Source of the DNA: Polyangium spumosum
GTDB taxonomy: Bacteria; Myxococcota_A; Polyangia; Polyangiales; Polyangiaceae
Length of the DNA stretch: 64,000 nt
Reading direction: 5' to 3'
NCBI RefSeq assembly: GCF_009649845.1
Contig: NZ_WJIE01000019.1
Coordinates: 62,001-126,000, forward strand
The first letter of the stretch is position 1; the number at the start of each line of letters is the position of its first letter. The translations under genes and the position numbers were made by a program. Under the pieces are notes generated by a model that saw nothing but the letters and a program-made list of their open reading frames with translations, ran no database searches and was not told the origin of the DNA. Positions 17,066 through 62,100 of the stretch are shown piece after piece.

Positions 17066-18211
17066 GTGGCTGACAAGGACGCCGCGGCGAGCCCCGAAGT
17101 GCGAGCCCGCCGCGCATCACGACGCACGCGGCAAAACCTGGCCGTCGCGACGATAACGCTCCTCGTCCCCATCACGGTCGCCCTCGTCCTGCTCGCCGAG
17201 TCCGAGGCGGGCCTCGCGCGGATCGCGCTCTTCAACCTGCACCTCGCCGAGCCACGCGCCGCCCTCGCCGTGGGCTTCGCGATCGGCTTCGCGCTCGCCG
17301 CGACCGCCGGGCTCGCGCGTTTCGTCGCCGATCGGCGCGCCCCGGCGTCGCTCGTCTGCCTGCCGCCCGCGCTGCTCGCCGCGATCACCTTCGCCGCCGG
17401 CCTCTCGTGGCTGCCCGATCCGCTTTCGCCCTTGCCCGACCTCCCCTTCGGCGAGCGCGCGCGCGCCGCGGCCTTCGCGCTCACGGTCCGCGCAGCCGTC
17501 TACGACGCGGGCCTGCTCGCCGCGGCGATCACGCTCGGCGCGGCCGCGCTCGCGCTCCGCCCCGCCCGCGCCACGGCCTCGATCAACAAGGACAAACGCC
17601 CGCTCGCCGCGCTCGTCGTCGCGACGCTCTCGCTCCCGGGCGCGGCGCTCGTGGCGCGTCTGCTCGGCGAGGAGGACCTCGGGCGGTACGCGGTCGGGAG
17701 CTGGGTCGCGGCGTTGCCCGCGGGCATGGGCCTCGTCGCCGTGGTGCTCGGCGCTTCGCGGACGAACCGCGGCGATGGTTACGCCGCCACGCGCCTGCTC
17801 GCCGCGGCGTGCGCGGGCATCGGGGGCGTGCTGCTCGCGGCGCTCGCGCCGGCGATGGGCGAGGCCATCACCCTCTCGACGCCCGGCACCCCCCTGGAAG
17901 AGCTCGCGCGCGCCGCGCACGACCTCCGCGGCAAGAGCCTCGACCTCGCGGCCTCGGGCGTGATCTTCGTGCTTCCGCTCGTCCTCACGACGTTCGCCGC
18001 GATGCCGCCGCGTGGGCTACGAGTGGCCCTCTCCCGCGCGCGCCCTTCCCTGCTTGTGACGCTGCTACTCGCGCTCGCGCCGGCCCTCTTCGTGCTCCCC
18101 ACGCGCGCGGCGCTCAGGCACGTCGAGGCGCTCGCGAACGAGGAGCGCCGCCTCTCCGCGCACCCCGGCGGCCCGGCCGAGCCCCTCGAGCCCTACCCCC
18201 CCGCCCCCTGA
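17066..18211 (+). CDS. Polytopic membrane protein, unknown
   Basis: A 381-residue protein with about eight or nine hydrophobic segments (for example NLAVATITLLVPITVALVLL, AAITLGAAALALRPA and LLVTLLLALAPALFVL). Neither the segments nor the loops show a motif that I recognise. The start is uncertain: GTG at 17066 or TTG at 17012, neither with a good ribosome binding site; the GTG is given because it is the start nearest the first charged segment. The last 19 bases overlap the 3' end of the convergent kinase/phosphatase gene. Confidence 0.7.
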   Translation: MADKDAAASPEVRARRASRRTRQNLAVATITLLVPITVALVLLAESEAGLARIALFNLHLAEPRAALAVGFAIGFALAATAGLARFVADRRAPASLVCLPPALLAAITFAAGLSWLPDPLSPLPDLPFGERARAAAFALTVRAAVYDAGLLAAAITLGAAALALRPARATASINKDKRPLAALVVATLSLPGAALVARLLGEEDLGRYAVGSWVAALPAGMGLVAVVLGASRTNRGDGYAATRLLAAACAGIGGVLLAALAPAMGEAITLSTPGTPLEELARAAHDLRGKSLDLAASGVIFVLPLVLTTFAAMPPRGLRVALSRARPSLLVTLLLALAPALFVLPTRAALRHVEALANEERRLSAHPGGPAEPLEPYPPAP

Positions 18212-19482
18212 TCCTCCACGTGTGGCGGCAACGCGAACCGCTTCTCCTCGCAGCCGTACGCCGTCGGCGTCAACTGGATCACCGTGTGTAGCGGCACGCT
18301 GATCGACGGACACTCGCCCGGCGGCCGGTCCATCAGGTACGCGTAAATCGACCGGAGCACCGCCTGGTGCGCGATCACCAGCGTCGGCGAGCGCTGGCGC
18401 TCGAGCTGGATGATCAGCGGGTCGAGCCGCTGGATCACGTCCTCGTACGATTCCCCGCGGGGATAACGATACCGGAATTTGTCGGCGCTCCGCGCGGCCC
18501 ACACGTCCGGCATCTCGATCCGCACCTGGTCGTACGTCATCCCGTCGCAGACCCCCGCGTCGATCTCGTCGAGCGCGCGCCACGTCCGCGGCGAGCGCGT
18601 GATCTTCGTCGCCGTCTGGATCGTCCGCCGGAGCGTGCTCGTCCAGACCGCGACCTCCTGATCCCGCTTCGCGTTCTTCCGAACGAACTCCGCCAGGTGC
18701 TTCGCGTACTCCTCGCCCGCCGGCGAGAGCTCGGGGTCGCCGCCGATGCGGCCGTGCTGGTTGTAGGCGCTCTGCCCGTGCCGCGTCAGCCATATCGGCC
18801 GCGGCGAGACGTGCAGGTCGATGAGCAGCGGCGCCAGGCGCGCGGGCAGATAGCCGTGGATCCGGTTCAGGATCACCTGCCGGCCGACGTCGATGATCTT
18901 GATGTAGCTCTGGTTCGGATCGTCGAGCGTCTCGTACATGGACTCGTAGTGGGCGATGCGCCGCAGGAAGTCCTGCGCCGCCGCGTCCGGGTCCATGTCC
19001 ACGTAGTCGGGTGATTTGAGCTTCGTGTCGCGGACGTTCGCCTCGATCACCGCCGGGTCGTTGCAGAACGACTCGATGAAGACGACCGGCAGCCCCTCCT
19101 TGCGACACCGCTCCTCGACGAAGCGCCTTCGCTCCTTCGTGCTGTTCGTCGCGTCGAAGATGCCGACCTCGCCGCCCTCGCGCAGCCAGGCGAGCATGTC
19201 GTCGAGCGCCGTCATGGCGAGGTCGTGCAGGACCTGCCGGCCCTCCTTGTTCGTCGGCGCGAAAAAATCCGCAGGCTGGCTCGCCCCGATCTGCCGGCGG
19301 CGGTAGCTGCCCACGTTGAACACGCGGGTCGGATGGCCGAGCCAGCTCAGGTAACGCGCCACGCGGCGCCCGATGTACGTCTTTCCCCGCGCGGGGAGGC
19401 CGACCATGGACAGAACGGTCGTCGCCTTGTCTCGCTCGCCCGGCACCCTTTTGCTCCGTACCCCCGACACGGCACGCTCCAT
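18193..19482 (-). CDS. 6-phosphofructo-2-kinase / fructose-2,6-bisphosphatase homologue
   Basis: A 429-residue bifunctional protein very close in layout to the animal and fungal enzyme. Residues 20-225 form the kinase, with Walker A GLPARGKT (Lys34), FNVGSYRR, FDATNSTKERR, FIESFCNDP and LKSPDYVDMDP. Residues 230-420 form the phosphatase, with LTRHGQS (His235), GRIGGD, LDEIDAGVCDGMTY, YRYPRGESYEDVI and VIAHQAVLR (His372). In eukaryotes this enzyme makes and destroys fructose 2,6-bisphosphate, the controller of glycolysis; that signal is not established in bacteria. The ATG lies 6 bases after the stop of the double radical SAM gene, so the two form an operon. That context leaves open a role on another phosphosugar. 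Its 3' end overlaps the convergent membrane protein gene. Confidence 0.85.
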   Translation of the reverse strand: MERAVSGVRSKRVPGERDKATTVLSMVGLPARGKTYIGRRVARYLSWLGHPTRVFNVGSYRRRQIGASQPADFFAPTNKEGRQVLHDLAMTALDDMLAWLREGGEVGIFDATNSTKERRRFVEERCRKEGLPVVFIESFCNDPAVIEANVRDTKLKSPDYVDMDPDAAAQDFLRRIAHYESMYETLDDPNQSYIKIIDVGRQVILNRIHGYLPARLAPLLIDLHVSPRPIWLTRHGQSAYNQHGRIGGDPELSPAGEEYAKHLAEFVRKNAKRDQEVAVWTSTLRRTIQTATKITRSPRTWRALDEIDAGVCDGMTYDQVRIEMPDVWAARSADKFRYRYPRGESYEDVIQRLDPLIIQLERQRSPTLVIAHQAVLRSIYAYLMDRPPGECPSISVPLHTVIQLTPTAYGCEEKRFALPPHVEDQGAGG

Positions 19483-19488
19483 ACCGCC

Positions 19489-21324
19489 CTACGAGGGAGG
19501 CGGGAAGGACGAATGCGCTCCACGCACGACCGCTCTCGCCTCCGCCGTTCCATGAAGCTCGGCATAACTCCGCCGAAACCCGAAGCAGCGTGTATTCAGC
19601 TCACACCGCCCGCACGCTTCGGCGCGGACGAACTCGCCCCCGTCGTGCCCCGCGGGGATCTCGGCGAGGTCGAAGAAACCACGCGGATCGACGGGCGCGA
19701 GGCAGAGCGGGATCCCGCACATCGACTCGAACCCGAGCACGGAAATGCCGGCCGCGCGCGCGATCTCGAGGCCCTCTCGCATCGCGGGCAAGAGATCGCC
19801 GTACCGCGGGATCAGGCTCTCCGTGCGGGGCACGAGGTCGGTGAACCCTCCGACGACCGAGACGTTGATCTGCGCGGCCGGCCAGCGCGCCGCGACGAGG
19901 CGCACGAAATCCGGGAAATCCGCCCTGTTCGGCGCGCAAAAGACGAAGTTCAGCCGGACCTGGATCTTCGTCTGCGCGAGCGCGTCGAGGCCCCGCGCCG
20001 TCTTCTCGAACGTGCCCGGCGCGCGCGTGATCACGTCCGAGACCTCGGCGCGTGATCCGTGCAGCGACACGAACGCCACATCGAGCCCGGCCTCTTCGAG
20101 GCTGCGCGTGAGCCCCGCGTCGGCGAGGCGCACCGCGTTCGTCTGCAGCTCCACGGTGATCGCGCCCTCACGCTTCGCGAGCTCGACGTACGCGAGGAGG
20201 CGGCCGTTCAAGGTCGGCTCGCCGCCCGAGATCTGCAACACGCCGCCCGCGCGGCCGACCTCGAGGATGGCGCGGCGCACGTCCTCCTCTTCGGGCGCCG
20301 GCAGGTGCGTCGAGACGAAGCAGAAATCGCAGGCCTGGTTGCACTGGAACTGGATCCGCACGATGTACGAGGGCACGAGGTGACCGTCGGGCGTGCGGTG
20401 GACGTCACGCGTGACGAGCTCGCGATCGATCTGCTCGCGGATCGACGAGATCACCGTGAGCTTGCGGCGGACCCGGTCCTCCGTGAGGGGACGGAAGCGC
20501 GACGCGGGTTCACGCGAGAGGAGCGGGCTCGGCACGCCGGGGCAACGATCCGCGACGACACACGTGCTGCACGCGGCGACGCGCGCGTGGCCCGGGCGCG
20601 TGGCGCCGCCGGGGCTCAACGCGTAGAGGTGCGCGAGGCGCGCGGGGCGCTCGAACGAGCAAGGAGGGATCGCCGCGCCGGGGTCGAGCGAGAGCGGGAT
20701 CGCGGCCTCACGCGCGGCTTGATCGAGCCGCTCGAGCGCGCGCGCGGCGCCTTCGAGGGGCGCGAGCGTCGCGGGATCGGGCGCGTCCACGGGGACCGAG
20801 GCGACGAGGCGCGAGACCGGGAGATCCGCGGCGCGCAGGCGGCCCGGGATCGACGCGACGAGCTCGAGGTTCTCCCGGACGATCGGCGTCGCGATCTCGA
20901 GCGGGATCCCCGCCGCGACGAGGGCACGCGCGCCCGCGAGCGTGGCGGAGAACCCGCCCTCGTCCCGCGTGATCACGTCCGCCTCGGGGCCAAACGCCGG
21001 CATGTGCACGCGCGCGATCGAGAGGCCCGCGTCCACGAGGGAGCGCGCGAGGCTCTCCGTGACGAGCGCCGCGTTCGTCTCCAGCACGACGCGCTCGGCC
21101 CCGCGCGCGCGGGCGTGCTTCACGAGGGCGGCGAGGTCCCGGCGCATCGTGGGTTCGCCGCCCGTCAGGACGACCTCGCGCGCGCCCTCCGCGAGCGCGG
21201 CGTCGATGCGGGCGAGCACGGACCTCGGGCGAACGAGCTCCGGCCGCTCGGCCGGTCTTCGCGCCGAGCAGAAGCTGCAACCCTGGTTGCAGGTCTCGTT
21301 GGTGAGCACCCGCGCGACGCGCAT
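19489..21324 (-). CDS. Double radical SAM protein with two Cys-rich auxiliary regions
   Basis: A 611-residue protein with two complete radical SAM modules in tandem. The first has CNQGCSFC (Cys12, 16, 19) and TGGEPT; it ends in a Cys cluster CSTCVVADRC. The second has CNQACDFC (Cys328, 332, 335) and SGGEPT, and ends with CGIPLC and CGRCELNTRC. Each CX3CX2C set should hold a 4Fe-4S cluster that cleaves SAM, and the later cysteines resemble SPASM/Twitch auxiliary clusters. Two modules in one chain suggest a two-step or substrate-channelling reaction; the substrate is unknown. The start at 21324 is the ATG nearest the conserved core; 21333 or 21336 are alternatives. It is divergent from another double radical SAM gene with about 60 bases between them, and co-transcribed with the kinase/phosphatase gene. 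Confidence 0.85.
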   Translation of the reverse strand: MRVARVLTNETCNQGCSFCSARRPAERPELVRPRSVLARIDAALAEGAREVVLTGGEPTMRRDLAALVKHARARGAERVVLETNAALVTESLARSLVDAGLSIARVHMPAFGPEADVITRDEGGFSATLAGARALVAAGIPLEIATPIVRENLELVASIPGRLRAADLPVSRLVASVPVDAPDPATLAPLEGAARALERLDQAAREAAIPLSLDPGAAIPPCSFERPARLAHLYALSPGGATRPGHARVAACSTCVVADRCPGVPSPLLSREPASRFRPLTEDRVRRKLTVISSIREQIDRELVTRDVHRTPDGHLVPSYIVRIQFQCNQACDFCFVSTHLPAPEEEDVRRAILEVGRAGGVLQISGGEPTLNGRLLAYVELAKREGAITVELQTNAVRLADAGLTRSLEEAGLDVAFVSLHGSRAEVSDVITRAPGTFEKTARGLDALAQTKIQVRLNFVFCAPNRADFPDFVRLVAARWPAAQINVSVVGGFTDLVPRTESLIPRYGDLLPAMREGLEIARAAGISVLGFESMCGIPLCLAPVDPRGFFDLAEIPAGHDGGEFVRAEACGRCELNTRCFGFRRSYAELHGTAEARAVVRGAHSSFPPPS

Positions 21325-21385
21325 CGAGGGCATCATCCTACCCCAAGCCCGTGCCTCTTGCGCGCGACCTCTGCTGCGGCGAAGA

Positions 21386-24300
21386 ATGCGGGTACGCATG
21401 AGCCCCCGCGCCGGCACGACCGACACGAGCCTCTTGCTCGCGCCGGGTTGCAACCTCGCTTGCCCCGTCTGTGATTGCCGCGGCAAACCGGCCGACCTCG
21501 GCACGCGGCAGCGCGAGCTCCGGCGCGGCGGCGGCGTGCTCGAGCTGCGCGGAGAAGCTTCACGCCTGAAGGATCTCGGCGAGGCCGTACGAGCCGCGCG
21601 TGACGCGGGCTGGGGCGCGGTGTACGCGCGGACGAACGGCGTGGCCTACGCCGCGCAGGGGCGCGCCGAGGAGCTCCGCGCCGCGGGCCTCACGGGCGTC
21701 GTGTTGTTCCTCGCGAGCGACCGGGCGGCCGTACACGACGCGATCGCCCGCGTGCGTGGCGCCTTCTCCGCGGGGCTCGCGGGCCTCGGCGCGATCGCGG
21801 CGACCGGGCTCGACGTCGTGTTCGAGGTGCCGGTGCTCGACCCGTCGATCCAGGATCTCCGCGGGACGATCGCGCTGCTCGCGACCACGGCGCCGAGCAC
21901 GCGTCGCGTCCGCCTGTACACGCCCTCCGCGCTCCGCCCCGTGGATGGTCGCACGCCGCGTGAGCTCTCGCCGCCGCGCTGGGATCGAGCGCGGGAGGCG
22001 CTGCTCGCGGCGATCACGTTCGCCCGCGAAAGAGGCCTCGAGATCACGTTGACCGAGCGGGACGGCATCCCGCTCTGCGCCGTCGCGACGAAGGACCCCG
22101 ACGGCTCGGTCGTGATCCCCGAGCGCCTGCTCGCGGATCGCGGCGGCCGGCCGATCCCGCGCCACGCCACCTCCTCGCTCGCGCCGAGCTGCGAGGCTTC
22201 TTGCGGCGCCTCGCGCGCCTGTCCTGGCACGACGACGCTCTACCTCGCCACGCACGGCGCCGCGGGTTTGTCCCCCTTGCCTCGCGCCCCGCAGCAGCGC
22301 CCGCGCGAGCGCTGGGACGAGACCCGGAAAAACGCGGCGCGCGCGGCCTTCTTCACCGTCCTTCGGCCCACGGTCCACTGCAACCAGGACTGCTGGTTCT
22401 GCAGCGCGAACGAGACCTCGCACAACGTCGAGGAGGATCCGGGCCGGATGATGCGCAGGATCGCGCGGCTCGGCCGGACGGGCGTCGAGCAGATCTCGTT
22501 CAGCGGCGGCGAACCCACGCTCTCGCGCCACCTCGTCGATTACGTCTCCGTCGCCAAGCGGACCGGCGTCCGCAGCATCGAGCTCGTCACGAACGCCGTC
22601 CTCCTCGACAAACCCGAGAAGGTCGACGCGCTCGTCCGCGCGGGCCTCACGAACGTCTTCGTCTCGCTGCACGCGCACGACGAGGCGCTCGCGCGGCAGA
22701 TGACCCGCAAGATGGGCGACCACGCGCGCACCCTGCGGGCCTTGCACCTCTTCGCGCGCCACGACGAGCTCCGGCTCGACGTGAACCACGTCGTCTCCGC
22801 GCAGAACTTCCGCCACCTCGTGCGCTTCGTCGAGTGGATACACGCCGAGTTCGGCGCGCGGATCGGCATCTCGTTCGCGTACGTCACGCCGCAATACAAG
22901 GCCCTCGAGCGCCTCGCCGACCACGTCCCGCGTTTCTCGGACGTCATGCCCTACCTGAAGCGCGCGATCGCGCGGGCGAGCGAGCTCGGCGTCGAGGTCG
23001 TGGTCGGCTCGCGCCAGGGCGTGCCGCCGTGCCAGCTCGAAGAGATGATGCCGTGGAGCGACGTGCTCGTCTCCTTGAGCGGCGCGCTGACGGAGGACCT
23101 CCCGCAGAAGCAAAAAGGCCCGGCCTGCGCCGATTGCCGCTTCGACCTCGTGTGCACGGGCGTGTGGAAGCCTTATGCGGCGGTCTTCGGCACGGGTGAG
23201 CTCCGGGCGATCCCCGGCGAGAAGATCACGCCCGAGAAATGCCTGAACGAGCCACGTATCGCCCGCTTCCGGCCCGGGATCGATCGCCTCGACGAGCTGC
23301 GCTTCGGCGACGGCCGCGTCCCGCACAGCGCCGAGATCCCGCTCCCCGAAGCGCCCCGCGAGCGTGTCCACCTGCCCGTGGCCCCGACCGAAGCCACGTC
23401 GCCGGCCCTGCGCGTCGCGATCGTCGGCACGGGCCGGCGCGGCCTCGCCTTCGCGAAGGCCCTGGAGCAAGCGGGCGGGTTCGTCCTCTCGGGCATCACC
23501 TCGCCACACGCGCCCGACAAGGACCTGCCGGAGATCGCGGCCGATGTTCCACGCGCGCGCTCGCTCGCCGAGCTCTGCGCGCGCGCCCCGATCGACGCCG
23601 TCATCGTCGCCACGAGCACGCGCGAGCACGCGGAGATCACGCGCGACGCGCTCGCCCGGGGCCTGCCCTGCCTCGTGGAAAAACCGCTCGGCGCGACGCT
23701 CGCGGAGGCCGAAGCGCTCGCCGCCGAGGCCAAGGAGCGCATCACGGTGGCGCAGCAGCTCCGCGCGGCGGGCGGGCTCGAAGAGGTCCTCTCGGTGCTC
23801 GCGGATCGGAGCGGGGCCACGCGTCCCGTCGAAATCGAGGTCATCCATCGAGCGACGCCCTCCTCGCCCGCGAGCTTGCACGCGTGGTCGCGCACCGCGC
23901 TTTACGAGCTCCTGATTCACCTCGGCGACCTCGCGCGCGCCGTGGCCGGCGAGGACCTGCGGGTGCGAAAGGCCTCGGCCAAGGGCGGCGGCAGGCCCGA
24001 GCGCGTGACCGTCCGCGCGCGTGGACAAGGCCCTCTGCAGCCCGACGTGACGATCGAGCTCTTGCTCGCCGAGGTCGCGGACGCGCTCGAAGTACGCGCG
24101 CGCCTCGCCGATGGAAGGCGTGTGTCGTGGATACGGTCCGAGGGCCGGGACCTCGTGGAGGTGAGCGACGCCGGCGGCAAACGGACCCGCACGCCGCCGC
24201 GCGGCGGCGACCTCGCGCGCCTCTGCGTCGCGTTCCGGGAGAGCGTCCTCCGCGGCGATCGGCCGAAGGTCACGGCGGAGGACGGCGCGCGCGCGATGCG

Positions 24301-24409
24301 GCTCGCCGCGGAGGTGATCACAGCGCTGGAGGCCTCCGGTGCGCCGTTTGATCGTGCCGCCGAGCCGAAGCGCGTGGCCTCGGTCCCGCTCCGGGATCGG
24401 GTCGGCTGA
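21386..24409 (+). CDS. Two radical SAM domains fused to a Gfo/Idh/MocA oxidoreductase
   Basis: A 1007-residue three-part enzyme. Module one has CNLACPVC (Cys22, 26, 29), but its GGEPT motif is degraded to LRGEAS; it ends with CEASCGASRAC. Module two has CNQDCWFC (Cys332, 336, 339), SGGEPTLSRH, and ends with GVPPC and CADCRFDLVC. From residue 675 there is a Rossmann fold (RVAIVGTGRRG), then VEKPLG and YELLIHLGDLA, the conserved Lys and His/Asp of Gfo/Idh/MocA enzymes, which oxidise or reduce sugars using NAD(P). The order suggests radical chemistry followed by redox on the same substrate, probably a sugar or cyclitol; this is inference. ATG at 21386 or 21398 could start it. The nearest genes are the divergent double radical SAM gene and, downstream, degraded gene remnants. 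Confidence 0.85.
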   Translation: MRVRMSPRAGTTDTSLLLAPGCNLACPVCDCRGKPADLGTRQRELRRGGGVLELRGEASRLKDLGEAVRAARDAGWGAVYARTNGVAYAAQGRAEELRAAGLTGVVLFLASDRAAVHDAIARVRGAFSAGLAGLGAIAATGLDVVFEVPVLDPSIQDLRGTIALLATTAPSTRRVRLYTPSALRPVDGRTPRELSPPRWDRAREALLAAITFARERGLEITLTERDGIPLCAVATKDPDGSVVIPERLLADRGGRPIPRHATSSLAPSCEASCGASRACPGTTTLYLATHGAAGLSPLPRAPQQRPRERWDETRKNAARAAFFTVLRPTVHCNQDCWFCSANETSHNVEEDPGRMMRRIARLGRTGVEQISFSGGEPTLSRHLVDYVSVAKRTGVRSIELVTNAVLLDKPEKVDALVRAGLTNVFVSLHAHDEALARQMTRKMGDHARTLRALHLFARHDELRLDVNHVVSAQNFRHLVRFVEWIHAEFGARIGISFAYVTPQYKALERLADHVPRFSDVMPYLKRAIARASELGVEVVVGSRQGVPPCQLEEMMPWSDVLVSLSGALTEDLPQKQKGPACADCRFDLVCTGVWKPYAAVFGTGELRAIPGEKITPEKCLNEPRIARFRPGIDRLDELRFGDGRVPHSAEIPLPEAPRERVHLPVAPTEATSPALRVAIVGTGRRGLAFAKALEQAGGFVLSGITSPHAPDKDLPEIAADVPRARSLAELCARAPIDAVIVATSTREHAEITRDALARGLPCLVEKPLGATLAEAEALAAEAKERITVAQQLRAAGGLEEVLSVLADRSGATRPVEIEVIHRATPSSPASLHAWSRTALYELLIHLGDLARAVAGEDLRVRKASAKGGGRPERVTVRARGQGPLQPDVTIELLLAEVADALEVRARLADGRRVSWIRSEGRDLVEVSDAGGKRTRTPPRGGDLARLCVAFRESVLRGDRPKVTAEDGARAMRLAAEVITALEASGAPFDRAAEPKRVASVPLRDRVG

Positions 24410-30112: not shown

Positions 30113-35599
<5,487 letters not shown>

Positions 35600-59100: not shown

Positions 59101-62100
59101 CTGCGCAGGGCGATCGCCCGTGCGGCGCGCGAGGCGCAAGGTGGTCCCGAGCAGCTCGTCGGTCGGCTCGCTGTCCTGGAGGATGCGCTTCAAGACGTCG
59201 AGCGCGGCCGCGTCCTCGCCGCGGCTGGCGAGCATGGTCGAGAGGTCGACCGCGATGCGGACGCGGGACATGGGGCCGAGGTCCTGGCGCGCGAGCTCGG
59301 AGGCGAGCACGGCCTCGGCCTCGCTGGCGCGCTCGGACAGGACGAAGAGCCGGCGCATGCTGGAGAGCGCGGCCTCGCGTTGCTCGGGGCTGATCGTCGG
59401 CGAGCGCAAGGCGCGCTCGAGCGTCTCGATGGACTCGGCGAAGTTGCCCTCGCGCTCCCTCCGCTCGGCGACGTGCAAGAGGGCGAGGAGGCGGACGTCG
59501 GGGGCGACGGCCGCGTCGAGGTCGTCGGCGAGCGACGTGTCGCCCGAGGCAAACACGGCGGCGTCGGCCTCGCTCACGAGCAGCTCGTCCTCCGGAGTGC
59601 GGCGCGCCGCCTGCACGAGGAACATGCTCGTGATCCGCGGATCGCCGAGCGCAGACGCGAGCTTGCCGCCGAGGCGCAGGAGCGCGACGCCGACGCCCGC
59701 GTAGGGCCTGGCGACGGTCGCGAGCAACGCGTCGAGGAAGGCGCGTGTCGCCGCCGCGTCGCCGGCCGCGACCACGGGCGCGAGCTCGACGAGCCCGTCG
59801 TACTCGTCCACGTCGCCGTCCGCGGCCACGGCCTTCTCGAGGAGCGCGAGCCCGAGCGCGTGGGCGCCGAGCGTGGCGATCGCGACCCTGGCGAGGCCGA
59901 GGGCCACGCGCGCGCCGTCCGGCCCGTCGATGCGCTTCAGCGCCGCGGGGGCCGCGCTCTCGAAGCGAGCGACGAGCGGACCGACGTGGCCGACGGAGGC
60001 GGCGAGCTTGCCCAGGGTCTGGCCGATCTCCTCGACGGTCTGGAGATCCGGGCGCGCCGAGAGCGCGCGCAGGAGCAGGTCGAAGCGCATGCGGCTGCCC
60101 TCGCCCGCGGCCTTCGCGAGCGAGGCGGCGCGCTTCAACCACCCCGCACGCAAGGCGCCCTCGGCCGCCTCGGCGACTCGCTCGACGGCGCGGATGGCCT
60201 CCGTCGGGTTGCCGCCGCGCTCCGCGAGCCGCGCCATCAAGACGTACGACGTGCCCTCGGAGGGGACGGCCTCGAAGCAGGCGACCGCGTGGCGCAAGGC
60301 CGCGTCGATGGCGCCCCTCCGCTCGAGCTGACGCGCGCCGCGGTAGTGCGCCGCGCGCCGCCCGTAACGACCGAGGGCGGCCGCGGCGAGCACGTCGTAC
60401 GTGCGATCGAGGACGTCGATCCCACCCTCCGCGATCGACGATCGCTCGACGATCGCCACCGCCTCGGCGCGTGACGGGTCGATCTGGATCGCGCTCGCGC
60501 CGATCTCGAGCGCGCGCTTCGGCAGCCCGTTCGCGACGGCCAGGTTCGCCGCCTCGATGAGCAGGGTCGCGCGCCTGCGCGGCTCGGCCGTGAGCGTCTC
60601 GCTGCGCCGCACGATCGCGTCGAGCGCCGCGTCCGGGCCCGCGAACGTCACGAGGTCGCGCGCGTACCGCTCCATCCCGCCGCGCGGCGCGGCCATCGCG
60701 GCCCGCCAGAACGCGTCCTCCGCGCCCGTGGGATCTTGCGCGAGATCCCAGCGCACGGCCCCGAGGTCCCGCAGCCCGCTCGACAGGTTCTCGAGGGCCG
60801 ACTGCTCCGGCCCGTCCACGAGATCCCCGAGCGCGCGCACCCTCGCCTCGACGAACGCGACGAGCCCGTCCGAGCCGAGCGACGCTTGGTTCTCCTGCAT
60901 CTTGTCGTCGAGCGCGTCGAGGTGCTCGTGCAGGTGCCGCGACTCCGCGCCCTTCTCCGCGGCGCGCGCGAGCTCCGCAGCCGCGCCGTCCCAGTCCTCC
61001 GCCGCCGCGCGCCTCTGCGCGAGGTCGAAGAGCCGCTCGACCGTGCGCTCGTTTTTCGTGTCGGCCGAGACGAGCCGCTCGAGCAAGATCACGCCGAGCG
61101 CCACGTCCCCCGCGCGATCACTCATCTGGAGCAGGCGCCCTCGCAGCCCCGGCACCTTCGGCCCGTACATGTCGAGCGCGCGCCGCGCGACGTCGATCGC
61201 CCGCGGTGCGTCGAGCTCGAAGAGCAACGAGAGCGCGTCGCCGAAGAGGCTCGCCATGTCGTCGAGCGGCCGCGGCTGCGCGAGCACCCACCCGAGCGCG
61301 TCCTCCAGCCGGTCCGGATCGTACGCCTGGGACGCGAGCCGCACGAGTTCGCGCATCGCGGCGGGGCAGCCGGGGCGGAGCGCGAGCCAGCGCTGCGTCC
61401 ACGTCAGCGCGAGCGCCATCTCCCCGACCGCCTCGAACGACTTCGCCAGCCCCTCGCAGAGCGACGATCGAATGAGCATCGTCGACGCGCCGCCCTCGAC
61501 CGCCATCGCCGCGTCGAGGTCCGGCAGGGCGATCGTCGCCTTCGCGAGCGCCGAGAACGCCCGCGCCGACGTGGGATCCGTGAGGCACGCGTCCTCGGCC
61601 GTCCTCCGCGCGAGCTGCACGAGCCCGAGCCCGAGGTACCCCTCGGCGGCCACGGCGAGCAGGCTCGCGCAGATCTCTCCGCTCGTCTCGGCGGCGATCT
61701 GCAAGAGCGCGTCGGCGCGCTCGCGCTCCTTCGACGCGCCGAGCGTCGCCTGGAGCAGCGCCGCGGCCGCGACCTCCGCTCCCTTCGCCCGCGCCGCGAT
61801 CGCCGCGATGCTGCCGCCCTTCTGCCGGAGCTCGCGGCGCACGGACACGAGCCCGTCGAGCGACGCGAGCGTGAGGGCACGATCGGCGAGCGAGCCGAGA
61901 TCACTCTCGACCTCGGCCACGATCCCCGCGTCGAGCACGGCGGCCACGGCGCGCGCCGCGCTCCCCTCGTCGAGCGCCCGCTGCACGCGGCGCAGGTGCA
62001 CCTGCCGCGCGCGATACCGGTTCGTCGTGGAGACGGCGCTCGCGTGATCCCGCAGCGCCTCGTCGGCCGCGCCCGCGGCGCCTCGCGCGGCGAGCGCGTC

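Follow-up and report, generated by a model that had tools for sequence, protein, structure and literature searches.

This study revealed that two adjacent radical S-adenosylmethionine (SAM) genes of the soil bacterium Polyangium spumosum, here called A and B, are likely to be linked in function to HxsA4, a His-Xaa-Ser repeat peptide encoded elsewhere in the genome. The genes lie in a window of 64,000 nucleotides (positions 62,001 to 126,000 of contig NZ_WJIE01000019.1, assembly GCF_009649845.1), which is the whole stretch of DNA that was analysed and belongs to contig 19 of a 10.76 Mb genome. Gene A encodes a protein with two radical SAM modules, and gene B joins two such modules to a Gfo/Idh/MocA domain. 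We consider it fairly probable that the HxsA4 peptide is the direct substrate. Our preferred reading, in which we have moderate confidence, is that A and B act in the maturation of this ribosomally synthesized and post-translationally modified peptide (RiPP), either as subunits of the machinery or as enzymes working in succession, and are encoded in trans to its precursor.

The association was examined in 98 Polyangiaceae genomes from 48 genera, drawn from a larger group, and in 188 genomes of the phylum. Within the family, a full-length B was called at E<1e-100, an A-type gene at E<=1e-60, HxsB at E<=1e-60, HxsC4 at E<=1e-100, and HxsA4 when its curated cut-off was exceeded, as it was in 34 of the 98 genomes. 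HxsA4 was found in all 12 genomes with B, compared with 22 of the 86 without it (p=6.8e-7), and this is the association that took the place of the AprD4/AprD3-style sugar deoxygenation proposed by an earlier, sequence-only reading. The A-type genes behaved in the same manner, with HxsA4 in 20 of 21 genomes (the remaining one, G065, has it below the cut-off only) and in 14 of the 77 without A (p=7e-11). HxsB accompanied B in 12 of 12 genomes, as against 28 of 86 without B, the HxsB of G036 consisting of two fragments below the cut-off; for HxsC4 the figures were 11 of 12 and 18 of 86. In the phylum, where a match to the B profile was taken at E<=1e-50 and some of the 29 positives match over module 2 only, HxsA4 at E<=1e-6 was present in 28 of the 29 and in 43 of the other 159 genomes (p=5e-13), or over its cut-off in 25 of 29 and 35 of 159 (p=6e-11). 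A looser match to B (<1e-18), with a threshold placed in a gap of the values after the data had been seen and taking in other radical SAM families, was obtained in 36 family genomes, of which 34 have HxsA4 over the cut-off; none of the remaining 62 does.

The genome of P. spumosum itself encodes HxsA4, HxsB, HxsD and HxsC4, all over their cut-offs. Its HxsA4 is a 98-residue peptide ending in repeated His-Gly-Ser (HGS) units and a final Trp (111.8 bits, cut-off 55), and the precursor gene lies beside HxsB (C6:142835-144241, 550 bits). HxsD reached 60.3 bits (cut-off 50) and HxsC4, at C12:53935, 599 bits (cut-off 500). Scanning in six frames revealed peptides with 12-16 HGS repeats at six of the loci covered and no HGS-repeat precursor in the window. 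By co-occurrence, with HxsA4 in every family genome that has B and in the genome under study, A and B would be placed in the HxsA4 system. Physical linkage was observed in some relatives. On a 4150-base contig of G036, B and the precursor gene of HxsA4 are convergent, their stop codons lying 64 bases apart, and in G174 the distance from B (C72:24581-27457) is 10 kb to HxsC4 and 16 kb to HxsA4. Of the 21 genomes with A-type genes, 6 have one no more than 16 kb from HxsC4, HxsA4 or HxsB, compared with 0.25 expected (simulated p=5e-7). An HxsC4/HxsA4 island of G232 encodes a 506-residue protein with four auxiliary-type cysteines and a Gfo domain, which is the best match to the Gfo domain of B outside B itself among the called genes (8.5e-65). 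Several relatives of A and B occur in islands rich in radical SAM genes, and the island of G047 also contains HxsB (538 bits, cut-off 370), an HxsD-like gene (54.8, cut-off 41) and an aKG-HExxH peptide hydroxylase domain (102, cut-off 40).

Several observations weigh against the assignment of A and B to this pathway. Of the 14 genomes that have full-length B, only G036 and G174 carry it on the same contig stretch as Hxs genes. In P. spumosum the Hxs genes are on other contigs, none near A or B; in the two-contig assembly of G014 a single contig carries B at 1.79 Mb, HxsC4 at 4.07 Mb and HxsB with HxsA4 at 13.0 Mb. The A-like proteins of G146 and G180 lie in an unrelated-looking neighbourhood. 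When one genome per genus was retained, which was the sole correction for kinship, HxsA4 was present in 6 of 6 genomes with B and in 15 of 42 without it (p=0.004). Among the 29 profile-positive genomes of the phylum, G099 is without HxsA4, and G121, G123 and G146 have it below the cut-off only. G033 has B, HxsA4 and HxsB and no HxsC4 at E<=1e-100, the HxsC4 of G016 falls just below its cut-off (497 against 500), and only 11 of the 29 profile-positive genomes have HxsC4 at E<=1e-100. The idea that all relatives depend on HxsC4 was rejected on this count, given that 28 of the same 29 have HxsA4. The predicted structures of A and B were poor, with a mean predicted local distance difference test score (pLDDT) of 48.0 and 42.1, respectively, each from an alignment of four near-identical sequences. 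Finally, HxsA4 is commoner than B, as the 22 family genomes with HxsA4 and no B demonstrate. Given this wider distribution of the peptide, A and B look like accessories of the pathway rather than its core.

The features of the locus are as follows.
19489 to 21324, minus strand: gene A, a double radical SAM protein of 611 amino acids with both modules intact (open frame; Pfam).
20392 to 21324, minus strand: module 1 of A, residues 1-311 (Pfam 5.9e-22 when searched alone; motifs).
19489 to 20391, minus strand: module 2 of A, residues 312-611 (Pfam 4.9e-17 alone; motifs).
21325 to 21397, no strand: intergenic region from which A and B diverge (alignment; conserved in three sister species).
21398 to 24409, plus strand: gene B, 1003 amino acids, with a degenerate and an active-type radical SAM module and a Gfo/Idh/MocA domain (open frame; Pfam).
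21398 to 22327, plus strand: module 1 of B, residues 1-310, degenerate (below the Pfam cut-off; GGEP lost).
22328 to 23392, plus strand: module 2 of B, residues 311-665, intact (Pfam 2.1e-24 alone).
23393 to 24406, plus strand: Gfo/Idh/MocA domain of B, residues 666-1003 (Pfam 6.2e-19 alone).
18193 to 19482, minus strand: 6PF2K plus His_Phos gene adjoining A, not counted in the system (Pfam 6e-76; a neighbour in Polyangium only).

Both genes proved to be open and coding at the positions given by the sequence-only reading, apart from the start of B. That start had been set at 21386; one of the three sister species (L041) has a 1-base insertion between two ATG codons which puts the first out of frame, so 21398 is the more likely start. 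The nearest named records of B are from Polyangium, at 90-91% identity. The Pfam Radical_SAM family matches A over two stretches (3.7e-40) and B at 3.1e-29, and GFO_IDH_MocA matches B at 2.4e-18, in agreement with the fusion that had been described. A resembles B across both modules (30% identity, 1e-39).

A CX3CX2C motif was read in all four modules, as had been claimed: CNQGCSFC (residue 12) and CNQACDFC (residue 328) in A, and CNLACPVC and CNQDCWFC in B. The additional cysteines reported after each module were also recovered, as a four-cysteine auxiliary motif in all four. The two modules of A have GGEP at residues 55 and 367, respectively. In module 2 of B, CNQDCWFC (328-335), GGEP (370-373) and the auxiliary cysteines 545, 577, 580 and 586 are invariant in the 11 aligned B proteins. 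Searched separately, both modules of A, module 2 of B and the Gfo domain exceed their Pfam cut-offs, and module 1 of B does not (23.6 bits, cut-off 29.5). The latter retains CNLACPVCDC here and reads RGEA at the GGEP position; none of the 11 aligned B proteins has GGEP there, and 3 of them have lost the middle cysteine of CX3CX2C. Its four auxiliary cysteines are nevertheless invariant in all 11, and the four-cysteine motif is found in 9 of the 9 proteins used for identity and motif comparison, over which module 1 averages 35% identity and module 2 59%. Given that module 1 of B fails in Pfam and has lost GGEP, the four radical SAM modules originally counted become three intact members of the superfamily and one degenerate module. 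From its sequence, this module has probably lost SAM cleavage. As the auxiliary cysteines are kept, its most likely role is that of a platform for docking or electron relay.

With its Rossmann domain, GxG motif and the lysine of EKP, the C-terminal part of B belongs to the Gfo/Idh/MocA family. GxG (677-679) is conserved in 11 of 11 B proteins, and K762 of EKP (761-763) and the helix histidine H841 each in 10 of 11. The acidic residue four positions before this histidine is glutamate in eight proteins, glutamine in two and proline in one, and the domain of L020 reads ERP instead of EKP and has no helix histidine. The domain profile matches structure 3c1a (1.5e-22), and its closest solved or curated relatives with a named activity are small-molecule enzymes acting on myo-inositol and sugars.

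Full-length B was found in 12 of the 98 family genomes (7 of 48 genera) and, outside the family, only in G174 and G232 of the 188 phylum genomes. A-type genes were found in 21 of the 98. Both occur together in eight family genomes and are adjacent in all eight, which bears out the claim that they form a pair. Their order is divergent in five Polyangium genomes, tandem in G067 and G038, where the genes overlap by 4 bases (ATGA), and convergent in G006. Four genomes with B (G016, G033, G036 and G060) are without A at the A-type threshold, and the Polyangium genome G056 has neither B nor the 6PF2K gene. A third double-module type, D, overlaps B by 4 bases (GTGA) in G033; its module 1 is without CX3CX2C in 3 of 3 proteins, and the auxiliary cysteines of that module follow the strict motif in one and a looser motif in all three.

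In a maximum-likelihood tree of 66 modules, first and second modules were split by one branch (100/98), and the second modules grouped with HxsC4 and other single-module proteins. The tree was rooted at its midpoint and has some long branches. The split fits a single double-module ancestor for A, B and D. A further fusion with a Gfo domain, in G142, has module 1 beside that of B (94/36, weak) and module 2 beside A and D (97/88). This is a 938-residue protein (L097:10347-13163) with GGEP in both radical SAM modules, and it adjoins a 1207-residue carbamoyltransferase with a weak DUF483 match. In G174 and G060, B is fused behind an additional protein, of which G033 has a stand-alone look-alike with radical SAM and DUF483 matches, both below the cut-off. 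Large proteins beginning with ...LHSHADRS or ...LHARADQ were noticed at L048:15886-18999, L051:5797-8490 and L054:13248-15941; the one tested has weak DUF483 and radical SAM matches, and a similar part precedes B in G060 and G174.

Modules with CX3CX2C and GGE cleave SAM to a 5'-deoxyadenosyl radical, and Gfo/Idh/MocA domains move hydride with NAD(P). The domain anatomy of B therefore allows the fair reading, already made from the sequence, of a radical SAM and NAD(P) enzyme in one chain. The substrate would be the HxsA4 peptide, comprising a leader, about 12-16 His-Gly-Ser units and a terminal Trp. HxsB and HxsC-like radical SAM enzymes would carry out the basic modification of the HGS units, and the three intact modules, two of A and one of B, could abstract hydrogen from additional Ser or His residues. 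Within the same polypeptide chain, the fused Gfo domain would then transfer a hydride between NAD(P) and the oxidised residue, in either direction, yielding for instance an inverted, reduced or carbonyl residue. The chances that this domain transfers hydride on the radical product appear evenly balanced, and the identity of any particular product is doubtful. In a tentative, more specific version, B is a one-chain, two-step peptide modifier within an unlinked poly(His-Gly-Ser) assembly line shared with A and some ten additional radical SAM families scattered over the chromosome. Module 2 of B would oxidise Ser or His in each of the 12-16 units, the NAD(P) dehydrogenase would make the overall change redox-neutral (an inversion, a deoxygenation or a carbonyl reduction), and the degenerate module would hold the repeat peptide or relay electrons. 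Clustering of the fetched loci gave 12 radical SAM families in the genome of P. spumosum, including A, B, HxsB and HxsC4; several of the others occur in Hxs islands of G039, G047, G174 and G232 or beside A in G030 and G259. As these loci were selected through matches to A, this list of scattered families is suggestive only.

The alternative that survives best, although we regard it as unlikely, is that A and B serve the HxsA4 pathway by acting on a small molecule, namely a sugar, an amino acid or a cofactor, which the peptide uses or becomes attached to, rather than on the peptide. The myo-inositol and sugar enzymes related to the Gfo domain favour it, but the loci of relatives that were viewed contain no conserved small-molecule gene beside B, and the one gene of sugar type is limited to a genus. 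The latter encodes the 6PF2K and His_Phos protein, the phosphosugar kinase/phosphatase that had been taken for an associated enzyme and that proved not to be a conserved partner outside Polyangium. Among the 15 genomes checked, it adjoins A in the five Polyangium genomes with B, lies on contigs other than that of B in G006, G036, G060 and G232, and was not found (none at E<=1e-40) in G016, G033, G038, G056, G067 and G174. No other conserved sugar-pathway neighbour was noticed in the relatives' loci viewed, where genes were called with a simple script.

It is less probable still that the association is a coincidence, radical SAM and Hxs genes both being frequent in certain Myxococcota and A and B acting in an unrelated pathway. 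The relatives do share their islands with radical SAM genes of several kinds, and the genes are scattered in the genome of P. spumosum. Nevertheless, the agreement between loose B matches and HxsA4 holds in genomes of at least 8 Mb (21/21 against 0/27) as well as in smaller ones (13/15 against 0/35), with the post hoc threshold given above. Furthermore, five of the six genomes with HxsB and no HxsA4 over the cut-off are without B-like radical SAM genes, and linkage to Hxs genes exceeds expectation. A binding or sensing role for the Gfo domain of B, in place of enzyme activity, is in our view very unlikely. The variable acidic residue and the altered domain of L020 would suit such a role, but the conservation of GxG, K762 and H841 argues against it, as does the existence in G142 of a Gfo fusion with two intact modules. 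The least probable of the alternatives is a radical SAM dehydratase and reductase that deoxygenate a sugar, which has in its favour the radical step and NAD(P) domain in one chain and the known two-protein case of AprD4 and NADPH-dependent AprD3 (PMC5461906), but against it the association of A and B with HxsA4 and the 6PF2K gene, which lies on other contigs or was not found in 10 of 15 genomes, the other five being Polyangium. As this gene is not a conserved partner, the sugar pathway was rejected as the leading reading.

With regard to known systems, A and B resemble Hxs RiPP systems (NF038313, TIGR03978, NF038332, TIGR03976) in that the genome of P. spumosum has all four components and the two genes co-occur with HxsA4. 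They differ from the Hxs maturases in being double-module proteins, B with a Gfo domain and a degenerate module in addition, and neither exceeds an NCBIfam cut-off among the best 25 of 66 (A) and 62 (B) matches. A scored 124.9 bits against HxsC4 (cut-off 500) and 108.3 against HxsC (cut-off 267.9), and B 120.5 and 89.1, respectively. HxsC4 is likewise the top NCBIfam match of module 2 of A (74.4 bits) and of module 2 of B, below the cut-off in both instances. Neither protein thus qualifies as HxsC or HxsC4, and HxsB was not among the matches listed. HxsB and HxsC themselves are described only as putative maturases of His-Xaa-Ser peptides in the portion of the literature consulted (PMC9062424). 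The CX3CX2C and downstream four-cysteine motifs recall SPASM/Twitch-like radical SAM enzymes, from which A and B differ in their tandem modules; in addition, module 1 of B has no GGEP and module 1 of D no CX3CX2C, with auxiliary cysteines kept.

Maturases of triceptides (three-residue cyclophanes) are described as linking residues i and i+2, for example C2 of His to Cbeta of Ala and C4 of Phe to Cbeta of Ser (PMC11002830). His-Gly-Ser has the same spacing, and by analogy one would guess that HxsB and HxsC join His to Ser in each unit; the analogy extends to these two enzymes only, and triceptide families were not among the best NCBIfam matches of A and B. In aminoglycosides, a radical SAM step by AprD4 is followed by NADPH-dependent AprD3, a separate protein (PMC5461906). 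This is a fair mechanical analogy for the radical step and reduction, but B has one chain and no conserved sugar context, and membership in that system is not supported. B also shares with Gfo/Idh/MocA oxidoreductases a Rossmann domain over the Pfam cut-off, as its match to 3c1a indicates, but it carries this domain behind two radical SAM modules and its usual acidic residue is variable.

The Hxs class, including HxsA4 and HxsC4, has already been modelled in NCBIfam, and the new part consists of the A and B enzymes. In the literature searched, no paper naming HxsA4 or HxsC4 and no description of the A-B pair were found, in line with the claim that no system with this set had been described. 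As no NCBIfam cut-off was exceeded and no paper was found, we regard A and B as new within a known class. Linking a particular repeat peptide to two additional families of enzymes, one of which includes its own dehydrogenase, provides these enzymes with a concrete candidate substrate. The radical SAM modules that apparently lack SAM chemistry yet retain an auxiliary cluster site are of interest in themselves. Moreover, the findings point to a peptide pathway with dispersed genes, one that would escape genome mining aimed at compact clusters.

Several minor observations concern Hxs loci and their surroundings. On contig 6 of P. spumosum (L098:12440-17114), HxsA4, HxsB and HxsD lie beside a 680-residue protein with seven Cu-binding_MopE stretches (PF11617, 1e-33), and a similar protein occupies the same place in G014 (L112:7225-8976); this neighbour might hint at a metal role for the HxsA4 peptide. 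G014, a Polyangium, has besides the HxsA4 type a second, more classical Hxs set (L111:9131-12565), comprising an HxsA-like gene below the cut-off, HxsB over the cut-off and another radical SAM gene. A radical SAM island of G006 with PhyH-like and Rieske-like genes includes a relative of the WelO5-type halogenases (L046:591-1409; PF22814, 3.3e-77). Besides radical SAM genes, another island on contig 6 of P. spumosum (L101:4475-19402) has two PhyH genes and encodes a Rieske oxygenase as well as a carbamoyltransferase whose tail is SxtJ-like. Finally, positions 30113-35599 of the window (minus strand) encode an 1828-residue histidine-kinase-like protein with many near-identical repeats of about 90 residues, which appear HAMP-like by eye only.

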